64,000 bases of DNA from the NCBI GenBank assembly GCA_004764695.1, contig SMSO01000034.1, forward strand, positions 389,501 to 453,500, given 5' to 3'. The stretch comes from Schizochytrium sp. TIO01 (lineage: Eukaryota; Sar; Bigyra; Thraustochytrida; Thraustochytriidae). The notes under the pieces were generated by a model. It saw nothing but the letters and a program-made list of their open reading frames with translations. It searched no databases and was not told where the DNA came from. Positions 18,748 through 45,616 of this stretch are shown one piece after another. Numbering within the stretch: position 1 is the first letter of the stretch; the number at the start of each line of letters is the position of its first letter. A program made the translations under genes and the position numbers.

Positions 18748-19479
18748 CTATTTATCGTAGCTGAAGTCATCTTCTACAACTCTTGCAATTGGCAATTCAC
18801 CTTGAAATGGAACAACAGTGGCCGACGGGGCTGTTCCAGATAGTGTTGCGGGGTCGAGGTTGTTGACAGCGCACATTGCATTCAGAAGTGCACTCAAAAA
18901 TCCGTATGTACGTCTGAGTTTGTATTGCCCAAAAACCATGTTCCACCTAGGTTTCTTTTCGCGAGCAAAAATGTCTTCAGGCATACTATTGTCTTTTATG
19001 ATGAACACCCTGTGTTGAACTAGATCATCGACGGTGTAAGAGAAGACTTTTTCGCTCGGTTTGGCATTAGGGGTTTCCACTATATATTGAAATACAGTAA
19101 CTACTGTTTCGCTAACTACAGCAAATCCGATAGGGTCTTTGACAGACTTAACCTGTTTACTACTCGAAGTTCTAGTATCTCTTTGAACAATGTAAGTATC
19201 TTCAGGTGAATTGTACGGCGGGTAACCGAAGAGCTCAGGATTCATGTAAACTTTGGTACCCTGCACCGCACAGGTCTGGGCATAAGCATTTGCTTTGGCT
19301 TGCATGTCAACCCTTCGCCTGTTTTCCGTATGCCGCTGGCAGTAGAAACAAATAAGAACAAATAGAATCACGCCTTGAAGTACACCTACAACTATAGGGA
19401 CAGTTGGAATTAAATCCTGCAGGTATCGTCTTTCGGCTACTGCATATACAGAGCCTCTGAGGTGAGGACTTGTATCCAT
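18748..19479 (-). CDS. Single-pass membrane protein, paralogue of the gene at 24264
   Basis: A 243-residue protein from the ATG at 19479. A hydrophobic segment at about residues 28-50 ('VVGVLQGVILFVLICFY') is followed by a basic charged stretch. The soluble region shares long motifs with the protein at 24264-25004: 'GTKVYMNPELFGYPP', 'GFAVVSE', 'QHRVFI' and a C-terminal block with 'YGFL', 'NNLDPATLS' and 'PFQGELPIA'. The pair lies in opposite orientation 4.8 kb apart. Topology is probably N-out/C-in or a signal anchor. The family is not recognised; the invariant Cys in the last third ('NAMCAVNN') and the NPELFGYPP motif are its best handles. Confidence 0.75.
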   Translation of the reverse strand: MDTSPHLRGSVYAVAERRYLQDLIPTVPIVVGVLQGVILFVLICFYCQRHTENRRRVDMQAKANAYAQTCAVQGTKVYMNPELFGYPPYNSPEDTYIVQRDTRTSSSKQVKSVKDPIGFAVVSETVVTVFQYIVETPNAKPSEKVFSYTVDDLVQHRVFIIKDNSMPEDIFAREKKPRWNMVFGQYKLRRTYGFLSALLNAMCAVNNLDPATLSGTAPSATVVPFQGELPIARVVEDDFSYDK

Positions 19480-19912
19480 AGAGAATGAATTTGACTCAGA
19501 TTTTCCTTGGTATTCGCTCTTGGTTGAATTGAGATTTGGGTTTGCCGGGATGCCCTACAGTTTGCGCTGATCTTTTGTTGCTTCTTTGAAGAGCTAAATT
19601 AAAAAAGTGTAGAACAGAGGTTTTGTACTATACCCTTATCCTACGACATACTTAGTTTTTCTCATAATTTTGTACTGATTTCCTTTAATTAAAATATTTT
19701 AAATTTTAAATTTAATACATATACATATACAACACGATTGCAAGAATATTGATTTGAAGTAGAAAGCGTCATACTTGAATGGAATACAAACCTAGTATAG
19801 GCTACATGTATTCTTGCGAACAGCTAACATCAGATCTATCAAGAAATTTCAAAAGGTAGGAAGAGCGAACTGGCTGCTTGGTGAGTATAGAGACTAGTCA
19901 GGCCAGGGATAA

Positions 19913-21946: not shown

Positions 21947-24263
21947 TTCTCTCCACAGTACTAAGTCTTTTTAAAGTGACCTAGGACATATAATTTGAAG
22001 CATATAATTTGAAGCATCTATAGTCAAGTATTCCTTTTTTAGAAATTTTTTGAGGCTGCCACTACGTTCCTTATCCAGGGCTCATGATTTCATTTCCTGT
22101 TTCAGATTACTCCATCTGGTATAGTAATCCCTCTTTCTGCACATGGACACACGAACCAAATGCACACATATTCTCCTTAGTATCTCTAAGCAGTGCAGGA
22201 GCAGGAATGTACGAGGTCTTTTATGTGGGTACGCGCAATTTTAATTCATTACGAACAGCAAGAAGCCCTCGGTAAACTAAATCTTGTCTACCTGCGTAGC
22301 ATGTAGTCAGGCAATTACAGTGGAGAGCATAATAGAGTTTTCCAGGTATTGAATCAGAAAATTCCATTGCTAATGCTTCCTTCATCTATCACGCCATTGC
22401 TATGAATCGTGCTGGTGCGCACTCTCAGCAGTGTTGCGGAACAGGCCCCTCCCCAAAGAAGAACCAAAATTAATTTAGAAACAAACGTGGACTTTCATTA
22501 ACATTTTTTTTTTTTTCAAAGAGGGTGGGAATTCTTCTACTTCTTTTCTATTTAGTCTATATTCTATTTGCAACTTGTCACTTTAAAATAAAACAAATTG
22601 TATAAAGGAACAAATGTCTATTATTCAGGGACAGGATATGGTTTTTCTCATTCACTAAACAAATGATCATCCTGAAATAATCACAAATAATGTTACAGAT
22701 GAAACTTAAATATCTGATACGCTCTGTCTCGACGAGAGAAGCTTTGTGCCCAAATCCAACATCGATAGGAGTAGAATCTGGCTAACGCAAATGCGGCATC
22801 GCATTCAAACTGAAGAAGTCCATGATGTCATCACAATCTTCAAAGTATGTTCGGGCTACGGTAACAATGTGCTTGGAACTTTGCAGTTCTGAAGCAACTT
22901 TGGAAGCATGCTCGTGCTGGAAAACTGAAACGCTCATACGCTTATGCACAAGCAGGACATAACCAGTAGTAGAAGCGCGATACCGAAATCCTCAGTGCAA
23001 TCGAGCGGATAGGAAGTCAATCTTTCAGATTACATGAATCAAATTAAGAAGAAGCGCCCGGTCTGTCTATATGTACAAGTAGTCGTTTTCTCTGCAGACG
23101 ATGCTACCTCGCGTTTACTGTGCCAGCTAAATAAAAACTGAAGGAAGGCGCGCACAGATGTGCACGCGCTGGTTTCGAAGGCGCGTGCGGCAAAATCAGG
23201 TTCCTTGCTTTGCATTGTAGAGCAAAGTAAATACAATACATTCATGATGAAGAAGCCTACTTGCCCAGGAGTCTATTGCAGTCGAGAGAGAAAACAGAGT
23301 CGCGAACTACTGAGAGTTAAGACGTGCGAAATATAAATATACTTGCTCTGGATGCAGCGCGCTCTTGATGGACTAGTGAGCTCTCACAAATCAGAGGTTC
23401 TTCCTTCGAATCCTTTTACATGAGTAGAAACTTGAGCAACCAACTGGGCATTATTGCGAAGAATGGTCGATATTAGAGAAATTAGTAAATGGGAGGAGTA
23501 TCTTAGTAACGCTAGTACCTATTTCCTGTAGAAAGCATGAAAGCTTGATGATTTCAAAACTAATTGTAGCAAATCTAAAACTCCAGCGACATGAGTTGAT
23601 TATCTCTAAGAAAATATGTGCTGCTTCCGTACACTATGGATTCAAGTCGTCAGCTTCGAGGCGAAGAATATGCAGTGGTGGCAAGACGATCTCTCTTCGG
23701 CCAGCGGTATTTCTTACTAATAGGTTTAATAGGTATTCTAGTACTATCTGAGTTCTTTATCATGGTTGTTTGCTGAAGTAAGCGATTATTGCTGTTTCTC
23801 ACTCTTTCTATTTCCTTTTTGTCTTTCAAAATTACACTTTTGCATATTATGCTGTGTTAGGACCAGTCAGAAAAGTGAAGTGTAGAAATGCACAGTTTCT
23901 GTCGTCCCTGTTCAAGTTTTAAATAATAGTATTTCTAGTAGGTAACGAAAGTTTTTTGGTAAATATGGTAAGCTTAGGGACAAGGGCGTCGGCGAAATCG
24001 TCAAAGAGAAACACTGCCCGAAAGTGGAGTCTCATCCATGCCAAAGTTCAAAGTTCATTTTTTATATCAGCCAGCTTCTTTACAAATCTTAGTATCTATG
24101 TCCTAATATTTTATTTAAATGAACGTTCTCGTAGGAGGGAACTCCTCAAAGTCTTTTGCCTGGGAGAAAATGCAAGCAAAACAACTACTCATTACAAAAA
24201 TACAAGAAAGCTGCATTAATCCTTTATGAATCCCAACGGAAAGAGAGACTATCTTCAGACGTG

Positions 24264-25004
24264 ATGAATGCAGCTCGTGGTCTCTGGGACTCTGAATATA
24301 CCCACAGAGAACTTCAGCTTGGAGATAGTAGCGACCCGTGGCAATGGGTGCTTTTGGGAGGATGCATTGCGTTTATTATCTGGTGCCTCTGCTGGACAGA
24401 ATACATTCGTAGATATTGTGAACAATCAGAAAAAAGAAAGAAAGTTCTAGCCCAAGACAGAGCACGTGCATATGCTCAAATCTGCGAGATCGAGGGTACG
24501 AAAGTCTACATGAATCCTGAATTGTTTGGCTATCCACCGCACGATACATCTAAGGATACGTATACTACTGTTAATGAAGAGAGTGGTACTAACTCCCCCG
24601 TGACTAACCTGATGACTATCAATGACCCTTTTGGGTTTGCTGTAGTAAGTGAAAATTTGGTCACCATTCTTGAATTTAGACCACACAAGTCAGACGCTGG
24701 AGTGATCAAATCCGAATTTTCATACAATGCTGATGATTTGCTTCAACATAGAGTTTTCATTAAGAAGGATATCGAAGCTGTAGTTTTCAACGACCCGCAG
24801 CGTGCTTGGGTCATGCTTATCGGTTTACAAGAGATTAGATTTTCATATGGATTTTTAAATTCACTCTTGAATTCAATGTGTTTTGCTAACAACATTGACC
24901 CCAGCACAGTGTCTAATGTGACTTCATTGGCCACTGTTATTCCATTTCGAGGTGAAACTCCGGTAGCAAGTTTGGTAAAGGATAACTGTGCTTATGATGA
25001 GTAG
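24264..25004 (+). CDS. Single-pass membrane protein, paralogue of the gene at 18748
   Basis: 246 residues from the ATG at 24264. This start matches the length and layout of the 243-residue paralogue; the frame is open further upstream without an ATG. The hydrophobic segment is at about 30-48 ('WVLLGGCIAFIIWCLCW') and is followed by Lys/Arg-rich residues. Shared motifs are 'GTKVYMNPELFGYPP', 'DPFGFAVVSENLVT', 'FSYNADDLLQHRVFI', 'YGFLNSLLNSMCFANN' and 'PFRGETPVASLV'. Conservation is strongest in the soluble part, so that domain is under constraint. Its role is unknown. The arrangement, inverted copies around gene-poor repeat-rich DNA, suggests an old inverted duplication. Confidence 0.75.
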   Translation: MNAARGLWDSEYTHRELQLGDSSDPWQWVLLGGCIAFIIWCLCWTEYIRRYCEQSEKRKKVLAQDRARAYAQICEIEGTKVYMNPELFGYPPHDTSKDTYTTVNEESGTNSPVTNLMTINDPFGFAVVSENLVTILEFRPHKSDAGVIKSEFSYNADDLLQHRVFIKKDIEAVVFNDPQRAWVMLIGLQEIRFSYGFLNSLLNSMCFANNIDPSTVSNVTSLATVIPFRGETPVASLVKDNCAYDE

Positions 25005-38986: not shown

Positions 38987-39896
38987 TTAATCTAATTTGA
39001 ATCCAGCGCCGACAATGTCGGATGTTAACAAAGGCGCAAGCTGCTCCAGCAAAGCACTTCGAAGAATTCGGTCATGAATGTTTGTACTCCAGTAACTACG
39101 TAGACGCTCGGCACGCAAGAGTTGCCACGCGTGTTGAACCTGTTCGAATGAATTAGGGAAAACTCTTCCTTGTGCAAGATTCTTTTGGCATTTCCTCACA
39201 TGACGATGACAAGCTTCGCTATCCGTGCTACTATACTCAAGACACCATGCACAAAAGTGATTATTGCATGAATCTCTACTGCATGCCACAGCACAACAAC
39301 CATCAAAGAGCCCGAAGCAAGTGCCGCAGTTTGGGCAGCATATATTCAAAATCTTTTCCTGAATGTGCTGCAGGTGCTGTTTTATGTCACGGGCCAAACC
39401 ATCCGCCTTAAGAAGCTCCGCTACGCGTTTCTCAATCTCTTGCTCAGCTTGAGTTGCAACTGCAATCTCAGTCTTCATTTTCACAATCAACAAAAGATTA
39501 TTCAGAGCGTTTGGCGCAAGCCGAGCAACCTCTTGCACTGAGATTTTCCCCATCACATCCAGGTTTCATGCATGCCATCGTTCCATCTGCGGCGATGATT
39601 ACATGTGCTTGCGGTTTTGCGCCAGCTTCTACTGCGCGTTCGATACAGTCTTTACAAAGGAAGTCTCCCTTCTCACAACTCGTACTCTCGATAAGCGGTT
39701 TTTCCTCCATACACACAAGACAGCTCTCCACAGGAATCTCAGCAACTCCGAATGCACTATGCCGAAGTGCCTGTCGAGCGCTTGGACGCTGACCAGGGGC
39801 CGTTGCTGTGAGACTGTCAATCAGTGTCTGCATCGCAGTGCTTCGCTCAGTGGGATACAGGTCATCTAAGACTACACCCACAGAGTACATATCCAT
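38987..39896 (-). CDS. Kinase C-lobe end, RING-like and IBR/RING2-like cysteine clusters (two frames)
   Basis: The frame from 39896 continues the kinase ('MDMYSVGVVLDDLYP'). It then has 'CLVCMEEKPLIESTSC' and 'GDFLCKDCIERAV', a C3HC4/RBR-type first RING, followed by 'GTMACMKPGCDG'. The next part lies in another frame (to 38987): a helical stretch, then 'CCPNCGTCFGLFDGCCAVAC' and 'CNNHFCAWCLEYSS' with His/Cys ligands, an IBR or RING2-type cluster. Such RING1-IBR layouts act in ubiquitin transfer, with a catalytic Cys in RING2. The cysteine spacing is kept in both frames, so the break near 39550 (in a 'ggggaaaa' run) may be a sequencing slip or a very recent mutation. The kinase-to-RBR order is unusual. 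Confidence 0.6.
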
Positions 39897-42800
39897 TGCT
39901 GGTTTCGAATTTATCTACGGGCCCATCCTGTAACTCGGGGGCAATATACCGAGGCGTTGCTTGAAGAGACGTGTAAGTTACTGTTCGATTTGCAACTTTA
40001 ATGCCGTCAAAATCACCAATCAATGGTGTTCCGTTGCGTGTGAGGAAGATGTTCTCTGGTTTGATGTCGCAGTGCACAACCCCATGGTCGTGTAAATCTG
40101 CTACGCCTAGAAGTAGGCCTGTCGCAAGACGATCACGAGATGCTTTGCCTTCGTCAGGATAATCTTGAATCCAACGCGCTAAGTCACCTTGCTCGTAGAA
40201 AGGCATAACGATGCAGCCACGCGGTGGGACTCCAGGTGTCATGTCGATGAAAGCACCCCGAATATGTATTACGTGTTGGGAAATCACGTGCCCTAGATTT
40301 GCAACTTGTTTATAGAATTTCTCGGACTGACCTGAATGCTCGAGCTGAAATTGCTTTATAACTAGGGCGTTGCCATTATCATCAAGAACCTTTTGTACCG
40401 TCTTACCGCCTCTAGAAGCAAGAGGCTCCCCAACAGGCTGGAAGTCTGTGATTTCGACATTCGCCAACCAAAGATCTGAGCAAGCCACTTCGAAAACACC
40501 CTCTGTACTTACATGTAGCCTTTCTAACCAGTCTTCGTCCTTCAGTAGCTCTGGGTAGTGTTCTTGTGCGTGTTGCAGAATTTCCGCAAGCTTATGACGA
40601 TACACTTTACTCAGCTCAATAGGTGTCCCTTTGGATAGGATTTCCTCTTGTTTCGCGATTCGATCTCTAAAGTATACTCGACCATCCTCTGTTTCCTCTT
40701 CTTCAAGGTCATGTTTGGCTCTTTTTAAAATATTCATTGCCTTTCGTGAAGCAGCAAGTGCCTTCTCAATTTTCTCAATTGTTGATAAGTTCGGTTTGAT
40801 TGAACCCAAACGGATGGAGACGTACATCGCATCGAATTCTTCTCGCGAAATGATACTGCCCGGTTCAAAATTTGTGGTATTTCCATCTAAGTTTTCAACA
40901 CGACAGAGTATTGAGTTGATGGCCCACAGTATCTCCAATGCCTCAGCTGCAACTGCATCTTCTTTCAGGACTTTTAGCTCATCTCGAAGAGCCTTTCGAA
41001 GCTCCAACAGCTCATGCTGCAGTTCTGTGGCCTTTTCGGGCGTCCTGAGGGCAACGCGGAATGCGTTGTCAAGCCCTAACTGAGATACCCGCTCTATGAC
41101 GTTTTCAACCGCTTGTTTGCTTCGTTGCTCAGCTGTTCCACCTTCCCCGCTCAACTTCAGCTTGTATTCTTGAATGCACTTATCCGTCCGAGCAGCAAGT
41201 TCTTGGCAGTGTTTGAAATCATCTGCAGCTGCATTTTGAGTAGCTGACACATTACCGAAATTGAAGTACCCTATCGAACTTGCAAGTTTCGCTTTGAATT
41301 CGCGTACCGCATTCTCACCATCTCCATCGCTGCCCTCACGAATCCAGGGATGAACGTCTTCTAGAAGTTCTCGTAGGAGTTCTCTTTCTGCGTCCCGAGC
41401 CTCGATGAGACCGGACAAGTCAACCTGAGTACTTTCCCTAATTTGATCTTGCAAGTTCTGCAAGCTTTCTTTACATCTCCTCATGTTACCAGAAACTTGT
41501 CGCAATTTAACTTGCCCAAAGTAGTTTTGAACTGCCGGTCCTATGAACTCCTCCAGCAAAGCAACCCTGGCGCTTTCTCTCCTCTTATCAAGGCTATTAC
41601 GAAAACCTGCAATCTCCTCGGCGAGTTGCATCACATCAAAGAAGCTTGCATTGGCGCCTTGCTGTAGTCCTAATTTCGGAGACGCTGGCTCCCTGGCATG
41701 AGTGCTCTTCATCTCTCTTCGATTGCTCTGCCGCCTTCTCCCAAACGTAAACGCGGGTCCCTGAGATGCTGGCACCGTATCGACGAAGTTTATGTTGACT
41801 CTCTCCTTGATTTCTTGGAATGAAAAACCACTGGACGCAGCTACTCTCTGGGAAGAGCTCACCGTGTCTGGAACGTTTGTATTTCCTCTGTCTCCTGATG
41901 GGAAAATGTACGTAGCTACTCCAAACGAACAGAGACTTGGCGATGATTTCCTGTGGAAAGTTTGTCCTACCGTATCGATGAAGTTTATGTTGACTCTCTC
42001 CTTCATTTTTTGGAATGAAAAACCACTGAACGCAGCTACTCTCTGGGAAGAGCTCACCGTGTCTGGAACGTTTGTATTTCCTCTGTCTCCTGATGGGAAA
42101 ATGTACGTTTCTCTCTCTATATCTATAACAAGCCCGTCTAACCAGCCTTGGAAATCTACGTCTGGGGAATTGATGTCCTCTCCAAAAAGGCACACCTTTG
42201 CAAACAATTCTTCAGGTGTTAATAAATGTTTTTGAATAAAACAGGTAAATGCCAATCTGCGACTGTTTTGGGTGTCACTTAAATCACACCTGCGCCACGT
42301 TAATCAAATTAGCAGAGCATCTGTTAGAATCAAATCAGCGCATGAGAATGTGGTTAACCTCAGAACTTCACCGAGGATCAGAGAAACACAGGTAATCCTC
42401 TGTTGAAAAAAGAAGCGCTCACAGATGGACTCGAACTTACCAGATTTGAACAGAAGGACACGTTTGGTGCAGTGTCTTGGCAAGGGACGAAGCACCCGCA
42501 AAGCCGACGTTGTTTCCATCAAAGCTGTGAGTGACCATTACACGTTAAATAGTTGCACAAATTGGTCAGATATATGATAATGACAATGCTTTTTTATAAA
42601 AGCGCTTTCAAAAGATTTCCGATTTCCTTCTTTCATTCTCTCAGAATGAAAACCTTTCTGCCAACGAAACGTACTGTAGTATTTTCAGATTTTTGCATCT
42701 CTTTAGCCCTTTTGCAAGGGCCTTGGCGCCCTCATCATCAACTCTATTAGAGGAGAGACTGTGTTGTTTGTGGTTTGAAATGAAAACGTCAGCCAGGCGT

Positions 42801-45616
42801 TGTTAGTCTCAATCATTCTTGTACCACCACAGAACACGATGTCGCCACGACACCTAGGTCCTAGATATTTGCAAGCTGAATTAGATTTATTTTGGCATTT
42901 TATGATACTCTCCACCCTGATAAAGCTGCGAAGTGCGTGAAAGCTTCTTCAAGTTGTTATCGATCTCCACTGCTACTAAAACGCGAGCAAACGTGCTGGC
43001 GATGAAACGTACTCTAGTGTTGTCAGATTGGTGCAGCTCTTCAGCGCCTCAGCAAGAGCTTTCATATCTAGTCCACAGTAGCCAAATAAAGTACCAGAAT
43101 GTTTGAGTCTGTGTGATGTAAAATAAATGTCAAAGAACCGTGAGACAAGTCAGTTGGTGCTGTTCATTCGTGTAGATCACTCAAATCAACACTTGAATAC
43201 GCTTTGCTGACTGTTCTTCAGTGTCCGTATTTGTCATATACGTCAACTTCGGTCCTGCCGGCTTATTTTAAATCTAGGTGTGCATTTTGATCTAGTATAG
43301 TGGGAATACAAGATAGGTAAGATGAATGCGACACCCTTTTGAGAGTGTTGAGTCCACTCCCATTGCTTCTGATGCTTATGAACGTACTCTAGTGTTGTCA
43401 GATTGGTGCAGTTCTTCAGCGCCTCAGCAAGGGCCTTGGTGCCCTCAACGCCAATTCTATTAGAGGAGAGACTGTGTTGTTTGTGGTTTAGAAATGAAAA
43501 CGTCAGCCAGGTGTTGTTAGTCTCAATCATTCTTGTACCACCACAGAACACGATGTCGCCACCACACCTACGTCCTAGGTATTTGCACGCTTAGTTGGAT
43601 ATGTTGTGGCATTTTATGATACTCTCCACCCTGATACAGCTGCGAAGTGCGTGAAAGCTTCTTCAAGTTGTTATCGATCTCCACTGCTACTAAAACGCGA
43701 GCAAACGTGCTGGCGATGAAACGTACTCTAGTGTTGTCAGATTGGTGCAGTGCTTCAGTGCCTCAGCAAGGGCCTTGGTGCCCTCATCATCAACTCTATT
43801 AGAGGAGAGACTGTGTTGTTTGTGGTTTGAAATGAAAACGTCAGCCAGGCGTTGTTAGTCTCAATCATTCTTGTACCACCACAGAACACGATGTCGCCAC
43901 GACACCTAGGTCCTAGGTTTTTGCACGCTTAGTTGGATATGTTGTGGCATTTTATGATACTCTCCACCCTGATACAGCTGCGAAGTGCGTGAAAGCTTCT
44001 TCAAGTTGTTATCGATCTCCACTGCTACTAAAACGCGTGCAAACGTGCTGGCGATGAAACGTACTCTAGTGTTGTCAGATTGGTGCAGTTCTTCAGCGCC
44101 TCAGCAAGGGCCTTGGTGCCCTCAACGTCAATGCTATTAGAGGAGAGACTGTGTTGTTTGTGGTTTGAAATGAAAACGTCAGCCAGGCGTTGTTAGTCTC
44201 AATCATTCTTGTACCACCACAGAACACGATGTCGCCACGACACCTAGGTCCTAGATATTTGCTAGGTTGATTAGTCTTGTTTTGGCATAATGTGATACTC
44301 TCCACCCTGATAAAGCTGCGAAGTGCGTGAAAGCTTCTTCAAGTTGTTACCGTTCTCCACTGCTACTAAAACGCGAGCAAACGTGCTGGCGATGAAACGT
44401 ACTCTAGTGTTGTCAAATTGGTACAGCTCTTCAGTGCCTCAGCAAGGGCCTTGGTGCTCTCAGCGTCAATGTCGTTAGAGGAGAGACTGTGTTGTTTGTG
44501 GTTTAGAAATGAAAACGTCAGCCAGGTGTTGTTAGTCTCAATCATTCTTGTACCACCACAGAACACTATGTCGCCACGACACCTAGGTCCTAGGTATTTG
44601 CTAGGTTGATTAGTCTTGTTTTGGCATAATGTGATACTCTCAACGCTGATAAAGCTGCGAAGTGCGTGAAAGCGTCTTCAAGTTGTTATCGATCTCCACT
44701 GCTACTAAAACGCGAGAAAATGTGCTGGCGATGAAACGTACTCTAGTGTTGTCAGATTGGTGCAGTGCTTCAGCGCCTCAGCAAGGGCCTTGGTGCCCTC
44801 ATCATCAATTCTATTAGAGGAGAGACTGTGTTGTTTGTGGTTTAGAAATAAAAACGTCAGCCAGGTGTTGTTAGTCTCAATCATTCTTGTACCACCACAG
44901 AACACTATGTTGCCACCACACCTAGGTCCTAGGTTTTTGCACGCTTAGTTGGATATGTTGTGGCATTTTATGATACTCTCCACCCTGATACAGCTGCGAA
45001 GTGCGTGAAAGCTTCTTCAAGTTGTTATCGATCTCCACTGCTACTAAAATGCGAGAAAACGTGCTGGCGATGAAACGTACTCTAGTGTTGTCAAATTGGT
45101 ACAGCTCTTCAGTGCCTCAGCAAGGGCCTTGGTGCTCTCAGCGTCAATGTCGTTAGAGGAGAGACTGTGTTGTTTGTGGTTTAGAAATGAAAACGTCAGC
45201 CAGGTGTTGTTAGTCTCAATCATTCTTGTACCACCACAGAACACTATGTCGCCACGACACCTAGGTCCTAGGTATTTGCTAGGTTGATTAGTCTTGTTTT
45301 GGCATAATGTGATACTCTCAACGCTGATAAAGCTGCGAAGTGCGTGAAAGCGTCTTCAAGTTGTTATCGTTCTCTACTGCTACTAAAGCGCGAGAAAGCG
45401 TGCTGGCTGTGAAACGTACTCTAGCGTTTTCAGATTGTTGCATCTCTTCAGCGCATCAGCAAGAGCGTTCATATATTGTCCATCGAAGAAGGAGAAGGAG
45501 GAACCAAAACCAGAAGCGTTTCGTCCGAAGGAACCGAAACGTGAAGCGTTGTGTCCGAAGGAACCGAAACGAGAAGCGTTGCTTCTGAAGGAGGAACCAA
45601 AACCAGAATTGTTCAT
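38987..45616 (-). CDS. LRR - protein kinase - RING/IBR gene, multi-exon, with two frame breaks
   Basis: Model on the minus strand: exon 45420-45616, six 84-nt LRR exons (45081-45164, 44742-44825, 44403-44486, 44065-44148, 43727-43810, 43388-43471), then 43013-43108, 42675-42758, 42441-42524 and a long exon starting at 42289. Every junction keeps the same codon phase: each exon ends after two bases of a codon and the next supplies the third. The long exon codes a helical coiled-coil region, a kinase, and after single-base breaks near 39897 and 39550 a RING-like and an IBR-like cysteine cluster ending at 38987. The architecture reads as recognition repeats, signalling kinase and ubiquitin ligase in one chain, suggestive of an intracellular innate-immune-type or stress receptor. 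Transcription across the whole set is inferred from phase, not shown; an alternative start at 43065 could produce a shorter form. Confidence 0.6.
39897..42289 (-). CDS. Long exon: coiled-coil region and protein kinase domain
   Basis: It opens after acceptor 'gtggcgcag' at 42290, with phase matching the preceding LRR exon, and reads 'CDLSDTQNSRRLAFTCF'. A 66-residue segment containing 'YIFPSGDRGNTNVPDTVSSS' occurs twice in tandem. Residues ~200-560 are helical and Glu/Lys/Leu-rich, probably coiled coil. The kinase follows: Lys in 'NALVIKQF', hinge 'CIVMPFYEQGDL', catalytic loop 'VVHCDIKPENIFL' (HCD in place of HRD), 'IGDFDG' for DFG, and 'PRYIAPEL' as the APE region. All catalytic residues are present, so it could be active. 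The frame is broken one base before 'MDMYSVGVVLDD', which is the next kinase segment in the neighbouring frame. Confidence 0.8.
42441..45616 (-). repeat. Tandem array of single-LRR exons and near-identical introns
   Basis: Units of 338-339 bp each contain one 84-nt exon flanked by 'cacacag|' and '|gtacgttt', plus ~254 bp of intron. The exon codes a 28-residue ribonuclease-inhibitor-type LRR of the form 'LSSNRIGVEGTKALAEALKN' + 'CTNLTTLD'. Exons at 45081 and 44403 code the same peptide ('LSSNDIDAESTKALAEALKS'...), implying duplication of a 678-bp dimer. Introns are as conserved as exons, pointing to recent unequal exchange. Older, diverged units are at 42675 ('LSSNRVDDEGAKALAKGLKR') and 42441 ('FDGNNVGFAGASSLAKTL'). 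Confidence 0.85.

Follow-up and report, generated by a model that had tools for sequence, protein, structure and literature searches.

Single-LRR exon arrays as the putative ligand-binding part of a kinase receptor family in Schizochytrium sp. TIO01

The array of short exons found on the minus strand of the window, i.e., the whole stretch of 64,000 nucleotides analysed here, is probably the ligand-binding part of a receptor that combines LRRs, a protein kinase and a RING-like tail, and which belongs to a family whose members would be homogenised by recombination while the codons of the residues that contact the ligand diversify. Both the homogenising role of recombination and the diversifying selection are processes that we infer here. 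The receptors of this family are probably cytoplasmic, and they are likely to serve the recognition either of non-self (a parasite, virus or bacterium) or of mates or self.

Architecture of the LRR exon array

The array is formed by six units of 84 nt on the minus strand, each of which encodes a single 28-residue LRR of the RI type. These units are LRR exon 1 at 45164-45081 (DLSSNDIDAESTKALAEALKSCTNLTTL), LRR exon 2 at 44825-44742 (DLSSNRIDDEGTKALAEALKHCTNLTTL), LRR exon 3 at 44486-44403, LRR exon 4 at 44148-44065 (DLSSNSIDVEGTKALAEALKNCTNLTTL), LRR exon 5 at 43810-43727 (DLSSNRVDDEGTKALAEALKHCTNLTTL) and LRR exon 6 at 43471-43388 (DLSSNRIGVEGTKALAEALKNCTNLTTL), and their successive spacings are 339, 339, 338, 338 and 339 bp. 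The six exons and the period of 338-339 bp described in an earlier note on this DNA were thus all located. Each unit is bordered by ...AACAACACAG at its 5' side and by GTACGT at its 3' side, which gives LRR exon 1, for example, an AG acceptor and a GT donor. Given the score of 3385 obtained with Tandem Repeats Finder (period 339, 6.2 copies, 92% matches), a chance repeat can be ruled out as the source of the array, and the encoded repeats match the Pfam family LRR_6 at 2.2e-36.

The introns are in phase 2 at both sides of every LRR exon, so that units can be gained or removed without any change of frame. The common codon phase and the modular, frame-neutral design at the level of the exon, both of which had been claimed earlier, are upheld by these 84-nt phase-2 exons. 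The introns, of 254-255 bp, have a mean divergence of 6.4-7.0%, in comparison with 8.9% for the six exons, and the claim that the introns are as similar as the exons was therefore correct, or even understated.

LRR exons 1 and 3 had been noted as coding for the same peptide, and they proved to be identical even in their DNA (84/84). The introns that precede these two exons are 97.2% alike, whereas those that follow them are only 90.2% alike, which excludes a clean duplication of a dimer. Given this, the array would be better read as a patchwork derived from gene conversion or unequal crossing-over than as the simple recent dimer duplication that had been suggested.

The array is preceded by exon 1 of the gene (45616-45420), which has an in-frame ATG, a low-complexity head rich in Gly, Ser, Phe and Asn (MNNSGFGSSFRSNASRFG...), a partial LRR and a GTACGT donor that is predicted to splice in phase 2 to LRR exon 1. 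No recognisable signal peptide was seen in exon 1 on inspection by eye. On the 3' side of the six units, two older copies had been proposed, and both were recovered as 84-nt exons that are predicted to splice in frame, based on their sites and reading frame. The first of these, at 42758-42675 (DLSSNRVDDEGAKALAKGLKRCKNLKIL), is 73-82% identical to the six exons and retains the splice sites and the phase, while the last and divergent LRR-like exon, at 42524-42441 (HFDGNNVGFAGASSLAKTLHQTCPSVQI), lies between AG and GTAAGT, in phase 2, and would be joined without a frameshift to the kinase exon. A single open frame of 1,098 residues, which reaches the kinase domain, results when exon 1 is joined to the six LRR exons, to these two units and to the exon that begins at 42289, although the splicing of the LRR exons is itself predicted from the splice sites and the frame.

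One further unit, at approximately 43108-43013, resembles exon 1. It has 96 nt from a CACACAG acceptor, is open in frame, and its 5' flank is a copy of that of exon 1 (87.5% identity over 184 bp). This unit could either be an exon internal to the gene or mark where a second and shorter gene starts within the array. Elsewhere in the window, two related ORFs lie in inverted orientation, at 18748-19554 (minus strand) and 24135-25004 (plus strand), and have the motif GTKVYMNPELFGYPP in common; they possibly represent a duplicated membrane protein.

The kinase exon and the cysteine-rich tail

An ORF on the minus strand (42303-39862), which lies 3' of the array and in frame with it, contains a protein-kinase domain. 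The large kinase exon (42289-39862) matches PF00069 at 2.8e-21, in comparison with 1.8e-29 in the paralogue L018, and the HCDIKPEN and GDFDG motifs, which supply the catalytic Asp and the DFG-like motif of a eukaryotic protein kinase, are found, with HCD in place of the HRD motif. The N-terminal part of this exon (41787-42108) holds two tandem copies of a segment coding for YIFPSGDRGNTNVPDTVSSSQRVAA...VNINF.DTV.

In the paralogues, the kinase and the tail occupy one open frame of approximately 925 aa. In the window, by contrast, the kinase frame stops early, and the cysteine-rich tail (39914-38987, minus strand) is divided between two further frames, 39914-39498 and 39565-38987, with breaks near 39,900 and near 39,530, which could reflect either decay or sequencing error. 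The cysteine pattern of the tail resembles RING1 and Rcat by eye, and weak matches were obtained in the PDB to RNF4 (0.004), parkin (0.04) and ariadne (0.15), although Pfam returned no RING-type domain in the tail.

LRRs of the RI type have a 28-residue pattern, LxxLxLxxNxIxxxGxxxLxxxLxxxxx. The repeats follow this type, and the PDB matches of one repeat string from the family are to RI, to 5irm, which we take to be NOD2, and to NLRP entries. Neither NACHT or NB-ARC nor ROC or COR domains were matched by Pfam in the window ORFs or in the ORFs of two paralogues. A membrane receptor was considered and provisionally set aside, given that the hydrophobic run which precedes the kinase in the frames of the paralogues looks like the translation of a polypyrimidine tract that leads up to a splice acceptor, and that exon 1 of the window lacks a visible signal peptide.

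State of the copy in the window

The codons of the concave strand, which would make the contacts with the ligand, are the same in all six units of the window (diversity of 0.0, versus 0.107 in the rest of the exon), and this copy thus has the architecture without the diversification. Similarly, diversifying selection was not seen across the six LRR exons, in which pN (0.074) is smaller than pS (0.134). The invariant contact codons, the excess of pS over pN and the broken frame downstream together raise the possibility that the gene in the window no longer encodes a functional receptor. It is 53-56% identical to all 29 of the paralogues that were fetched and is far from both the rDNA and the contig ends, which describes an atypical, divergent and internal member of the family that is possibly decaying.

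That this locus is a decaying, non-diversified paralogue, with an array kept alike by conversion and no current role in recognition, is a serious possibility to which we give a little less than even weight, and which is compatible with the explanation proposed for the family. The duplicated gene head inside the array favours decay, together with the two frame breaks in the kinase and tail, the invariant contact codons, the ratio of pN to pS, the internal position and the low identity to the rest of the family. However, all the LRR exons, their splice sites and the first kinase frame, of 813 aa, are intact, which would be unusual in a gene that has been dead for long, and sequencing errors could also account for the frame breaks.

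A family of LRR-kinase genes across the genome

The search of the genome covered a 64-Mb assembly of 37 contigs, and the homogenisation, diversity and copy numbers given here are all those of this one assembly. With the kinase ORF of the window as query, 56 matches were obtained at E <= 1e-6, the majority on open frames of 800-970 aa, and the zinc-finger tail has approximately 60 long matches. The size of the family of genes for LRRs, a kinase and a RING-like tail is thus put at about 55-65. The 29 fetched paralogues of the kinase ORF are mostly 79-100% identical among themselves in the identity matrix, and the kinase proteins of two pairs, C30 with C34 and C35 with C32, reach 100% after rounding.

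At least one 84-nt phase-2 LRR exon is present in the 1.5 kb upstream of the kinase in 28 of the 29 paralogues; the remaining one, L026, has none in this flank, and matches to the exon core lie just beyond it. Genome-wide, the 44-nt core of the exon occurs 345 times with no more than three mismatches, in comparison with zero occurrences in the reversed control. The arrays that were read contain 22 units at C12, 19 at C7, at least 15 at C30, and six each at C34 (one of them atypical), C24 and C32. The C30 and C34 loci are 97.1% identical over 6.7 kb, and yet they have at least 15 and approximately six units, respectively, with mostly different contact residues. The copies at C24 and C32 agree over 10.5 kb without a single substitution; their six indels are confined to the final 0.8 kb, close to the end of C24. 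The earlier proposal that the locus is built for changes of copy number in a recognition region is not supported at the window copy itself, with its uniform contact codons, pN below pS and broken tail, but finds support in the paralogues, in which the number of units varies, different arrays are attached to near-identical kinase genes, and the codons of the ligand face are extremely diverse.

The rDNA was located by searching the genome for the 5.8S rRNA (RF00002). No more than 100 kb separates 42 of 55 family genes from the nearest contig end or 5.8S rRNA gene, in contrast with a mean of 5.3 and a maximum of 15 under random placement. The 5.8S rRNA genes occur singly at 40 places, dispersed over many contigs, often near the ends and adjoining LRR-kinase genes, and those situated deep inside long contigs may be the marks of joined chromosome ends. 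In another thraustochytrid, Aurantiochytrium, subtelomeric rDNA has been reported, judging by the title of a 2023 paper by Collier et al. that is cited in PMC12993054, and mirusviruses are also reported for that organism.

Some other sequences of the genome resemble parts of these genes. The best candidate for an orphan array without a kinase, which might have acted as a donor cassette, was C5:13278-14586, but it was set aside because a zinc-finger tail of the family lies just downstream (C5:16985-17717). The same LRR peptides were also observed in separate 84-nt phase-2 exons at L041 (C13:5731770) and L043 (C8:216414), apparently outside the kinase family, and the single-LRR exons may be older than this family. 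Tail-like proteins on frames of approximately 415-504 aa, which are only distantly related to the RING-like tail (38-39% identity), are found at C24:4041137, C14:52234, C31:6527 and C6:1068504.

Where the arrays vary

The diversity of the repeats was measured in 86 units parsed from the arrays that were read. Nucleotide diversity is concentrated in three short blocks of each exon, V1 (6 nt, 0.61), V1b (3 nt, 0.53) and V2 (12 nt, 0.49), versus 0.008 in the core and 0.037 in the intron. When one unit was taken per contig name, the values were 0.65 for V1, 0.48 for V2 and 0.063 for the intron, although one contig can hold several loci. The three blocks code for residue 1, at the junction, and for residues 3-4, 9 and 26-27. 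Based on the known RI-type pattern, we assign these to a single loop residue and to the five positions at which the LRR strand (LxxLxLxxN) is exposed. The 14 nucleotides of the contact codons have a diversity of 0.57 in the large subfamily, in comparison with 0.07 elsewhere in the exon, and this value declines to 0.23 in one C5 array and to 0.0 in the array of the window.

The 86 units display 72 distinct five-residue signatures, with almost free association between V1 and V2 (73 combinations, versus a shuffled mean of 79.6). Two haplotype classes account for most of V2, namely T CAA NNN TTR and G ACT NNN CTK. At some loci V1 is replaced by a G/T-rich run of approximately 19-21 nt (e.g., GGTGGGGGTTTTTTTGGGGGC), namely L017/L068 (C24:5334, 4446), L018/L069 (C32:2894868, 2893980), L016 (C35:2712435) and L024 (C30:75478); these replacements are in frame at C24 and C32, but not at C35.

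Proposed mechanism

As each LRR corresponds to one 84-nt phase-2 exon, the units could be exchanged whole with the frame intact, and recombination could thus alter the number of repeats and mix them without breaking the frame. Unequal crossing-over and gene conversion, within and between loci, would allow entire repeats to be gained, lost and rearranged, and the same recombination between units would homogenise the backbones of the exons and the introns, which would explain why both are so alike. In the members linked to the rDNA or to the contig ends, the five residues that each LRR strand exposes to the solvent are diversified, which would give each gene a distinct binding surface. That it is mainly the contact codons that differ is most simply explained by selection in favour of binding surfaces that are unlike one another. 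The output common to the family would be phosphorylation by the kinase and perhaps, judging from the RING/Rcat-like cysteine pattern of the tail, which has weak structural matches, the transfer of ubiquitin.

Alternative explanations

Two features of the blocks are not predicted by simple selection combined with conversion, namely the absence of a shoulder of diversity around them and the high synonymous diversity inside them. The edges of the blocks are sharp, and the first ten nucleotides of the intron next to V2 have the lowest diversity of all (0.005), although this is partly due to the splice signal. Furthermore, the synonymous sites within the blocks are as variable as the replacement sites (pN of 0.58 and pS of 0.46, with a pS of 0.98 in the L28 codon), in comparison with a pS of 0.022 in the backbone. 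These features would be expected if the diversification were targeted, in which case site-directed mutation, the insertion of short cassettes or error-prone templated repair would rewrite V1, V1b and V2, while recombination kept the rest uniform. The C7 array (L067/L033, C7:1064946-1077745, approximately 19 units) also speaks in favour of such a process, given that all 83 of the 83 unit pairs with no more than one intron substitution differ in their variable blocks, and that the frame-breaking exon indels and one in-frame stop are found in V1, V1b or V2, apart from an additional insertion that adjoins V1. The 44-nt core, by contrast, is unchanged, save for one mismatch in the last unit.

We nevertheless regard the targeting as rather unlikely. 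The lesions at C7 reflect either mutation aimed at the blocks or the blending of unlike reads in the consensus, while at C12 and C30 the arrays have remained in frame and give the impression of existing alleles in new combinations, and most of the C12 unit pairs with no more than one intron substitution have the same variable blocks. The two haplotype classes of V2 can be explained by linkage within 12 nt, and a non-exhaustive search revealed neither an enzyme nor a donor locus. There is a small chance that a unicellular eukaryote rewrites three short blocks of the ligand face per exon at the level of the DNA in approximately 60 LRR-kinase genes, so that its clones carry different repertoires. 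If this were the case, the C7 array, with its distinct and often out-of-frame blocks between introns that are identical, or nearly so, would be the footprint of the process.

The repeats might also form a structural or signalling scaffold under neutral concerted evolution, their variability reflecting a relaxed constraint on the exposed residues, for it is at these residues that constraint on an LRR is frequently weakest. This explanation is improbable, however, because the contact codons are approximately 15 times as diverse as the introns (0.57 versus 0.037), which a relaxed constraint cannot account for, and most of the helix positions of the repeat are invariant. It is more improbable still, and very much so, that the arrays are artefacts of assembly through the collapse or false expansion of repeats, for although near-identical tandem units are hard to assemble, as in the case of the fungal repeats of 126 bp (PMC12222747), although the C7 indels are of a kind that a blended consensus could yield, and although the rDNA within long contigs may mark false joins, the units are told apart by their contact codons and by numerous substitutions spread over the introns, the copies at C24 and C32 agree as described above, and the same exon grammar recurs at dozens of loci.

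Comparison with known repeat-based receptors

The arrangement that we propose, of a ligand-binding array which is homogenised by recombination and diversified at its contact codons, has parallels in several other groups. In the LRR-ROCO genes of brown algae, in which LRR exons are shuffled, LRR exons of 72 nt in phase 2 have positively selected concave sites (PMC11378527, and Zambounis et al. 2012 cited therein). Those genes and the present family both have one LRR per exon, introns that are all in phase 2, many tandem units and variability of the concave face; the brown-algal genes have been proposed as an immune repertoire, and the stramenopile lineage is presumably common to both. They differ in their exons and repeats (72 nt and 23 residues in the brown algae, 84 nt and 28 residues of the RI type here) and in the output domain, which is a ROC-COR GTPase in the brown algae, not found here, and a kinase with a RING-like tail in this family, in which, unlike the brown-algal ROCO genes, the introns and exon backbones are near-identical across dozens of loci.

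A single 28-residue LRR in each exon is the usual arrangement in human NOD/NLRC genes (PMC6642158), and vertebrate NOD/NLRC genes and the present family are alike in having one LRR of the RI type in each exon, an architecture that permits the skipping of whole repeats (PMC6642158). The family is distinguished from them by the absence of NACHT among its matches, by its near-identical tandem units and introns, and by its kinase output.

The high-internal-conservation (HIC) repeats of the fungal het-d, het-e and het-r genes are hypervariable at certain sites and change in number (PMC4986451, PMC12222747), and they are characterised by concerted evolution, diversifying selection, polymorphism of repeat number and a role in self/non-self recognition (PMC4986451, PMC12222747). 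The repeats of this family are, likewise, near-identical with hypervariable contact sites (0.008 in the core versus 0.5-0.6 in the blocks). The fungal repeats, however, are WD40, TPR or ANK repeats on NACHT or NB-ARC (STAND) proteins, whereas here they are LRRs, one per intron-separated exon, joined to a kinase. By analogy, then, the family would work like the HIC repeats, but given its LRRs and the kinase in place of the STAND domain, it is not a member of the fungal HIC class.

In the NLR-B30.2 genes of zebrafish, some domains are homogenised by gene conversion and the recognition domains diversify (PMC4852459). The likeness to the present family lies in the size of the receptor family and in the combination of conversion and diversification, and the differences in the output domains and in the lack, in zebrafish, of an array of near-identical single-repeat exons. 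The variable lymphocyte receptors of lampreys are either secreted or membrane-bound, and are assembled somatically from cassettes. They are alike in principle, given that the concave residues of their LRRs are diverse on a constant frame, but their germline gene is incomplete, whereas the germline arrays of this family look complete.

Significance

Large repertoires of hypervariable repeat receptors that are modular at the level of the exon are already known from brown algae, fungi and animals. No published account of an LRR-kinase family of this type in thraustochytrids was found in a literature whose coverage was incomplete, and we found no account that combines a kinase/RING-like output, introns and backbones homogenised across dozens of loci that are mostly linked to the rDNA or to contig ends, and variability restricted for the most part to the residues predicted to make contacts. 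If confirmed, the family would provide a single-celled model for the origin of recognition repertoires, and for the question of whether mutation can target contact codons.
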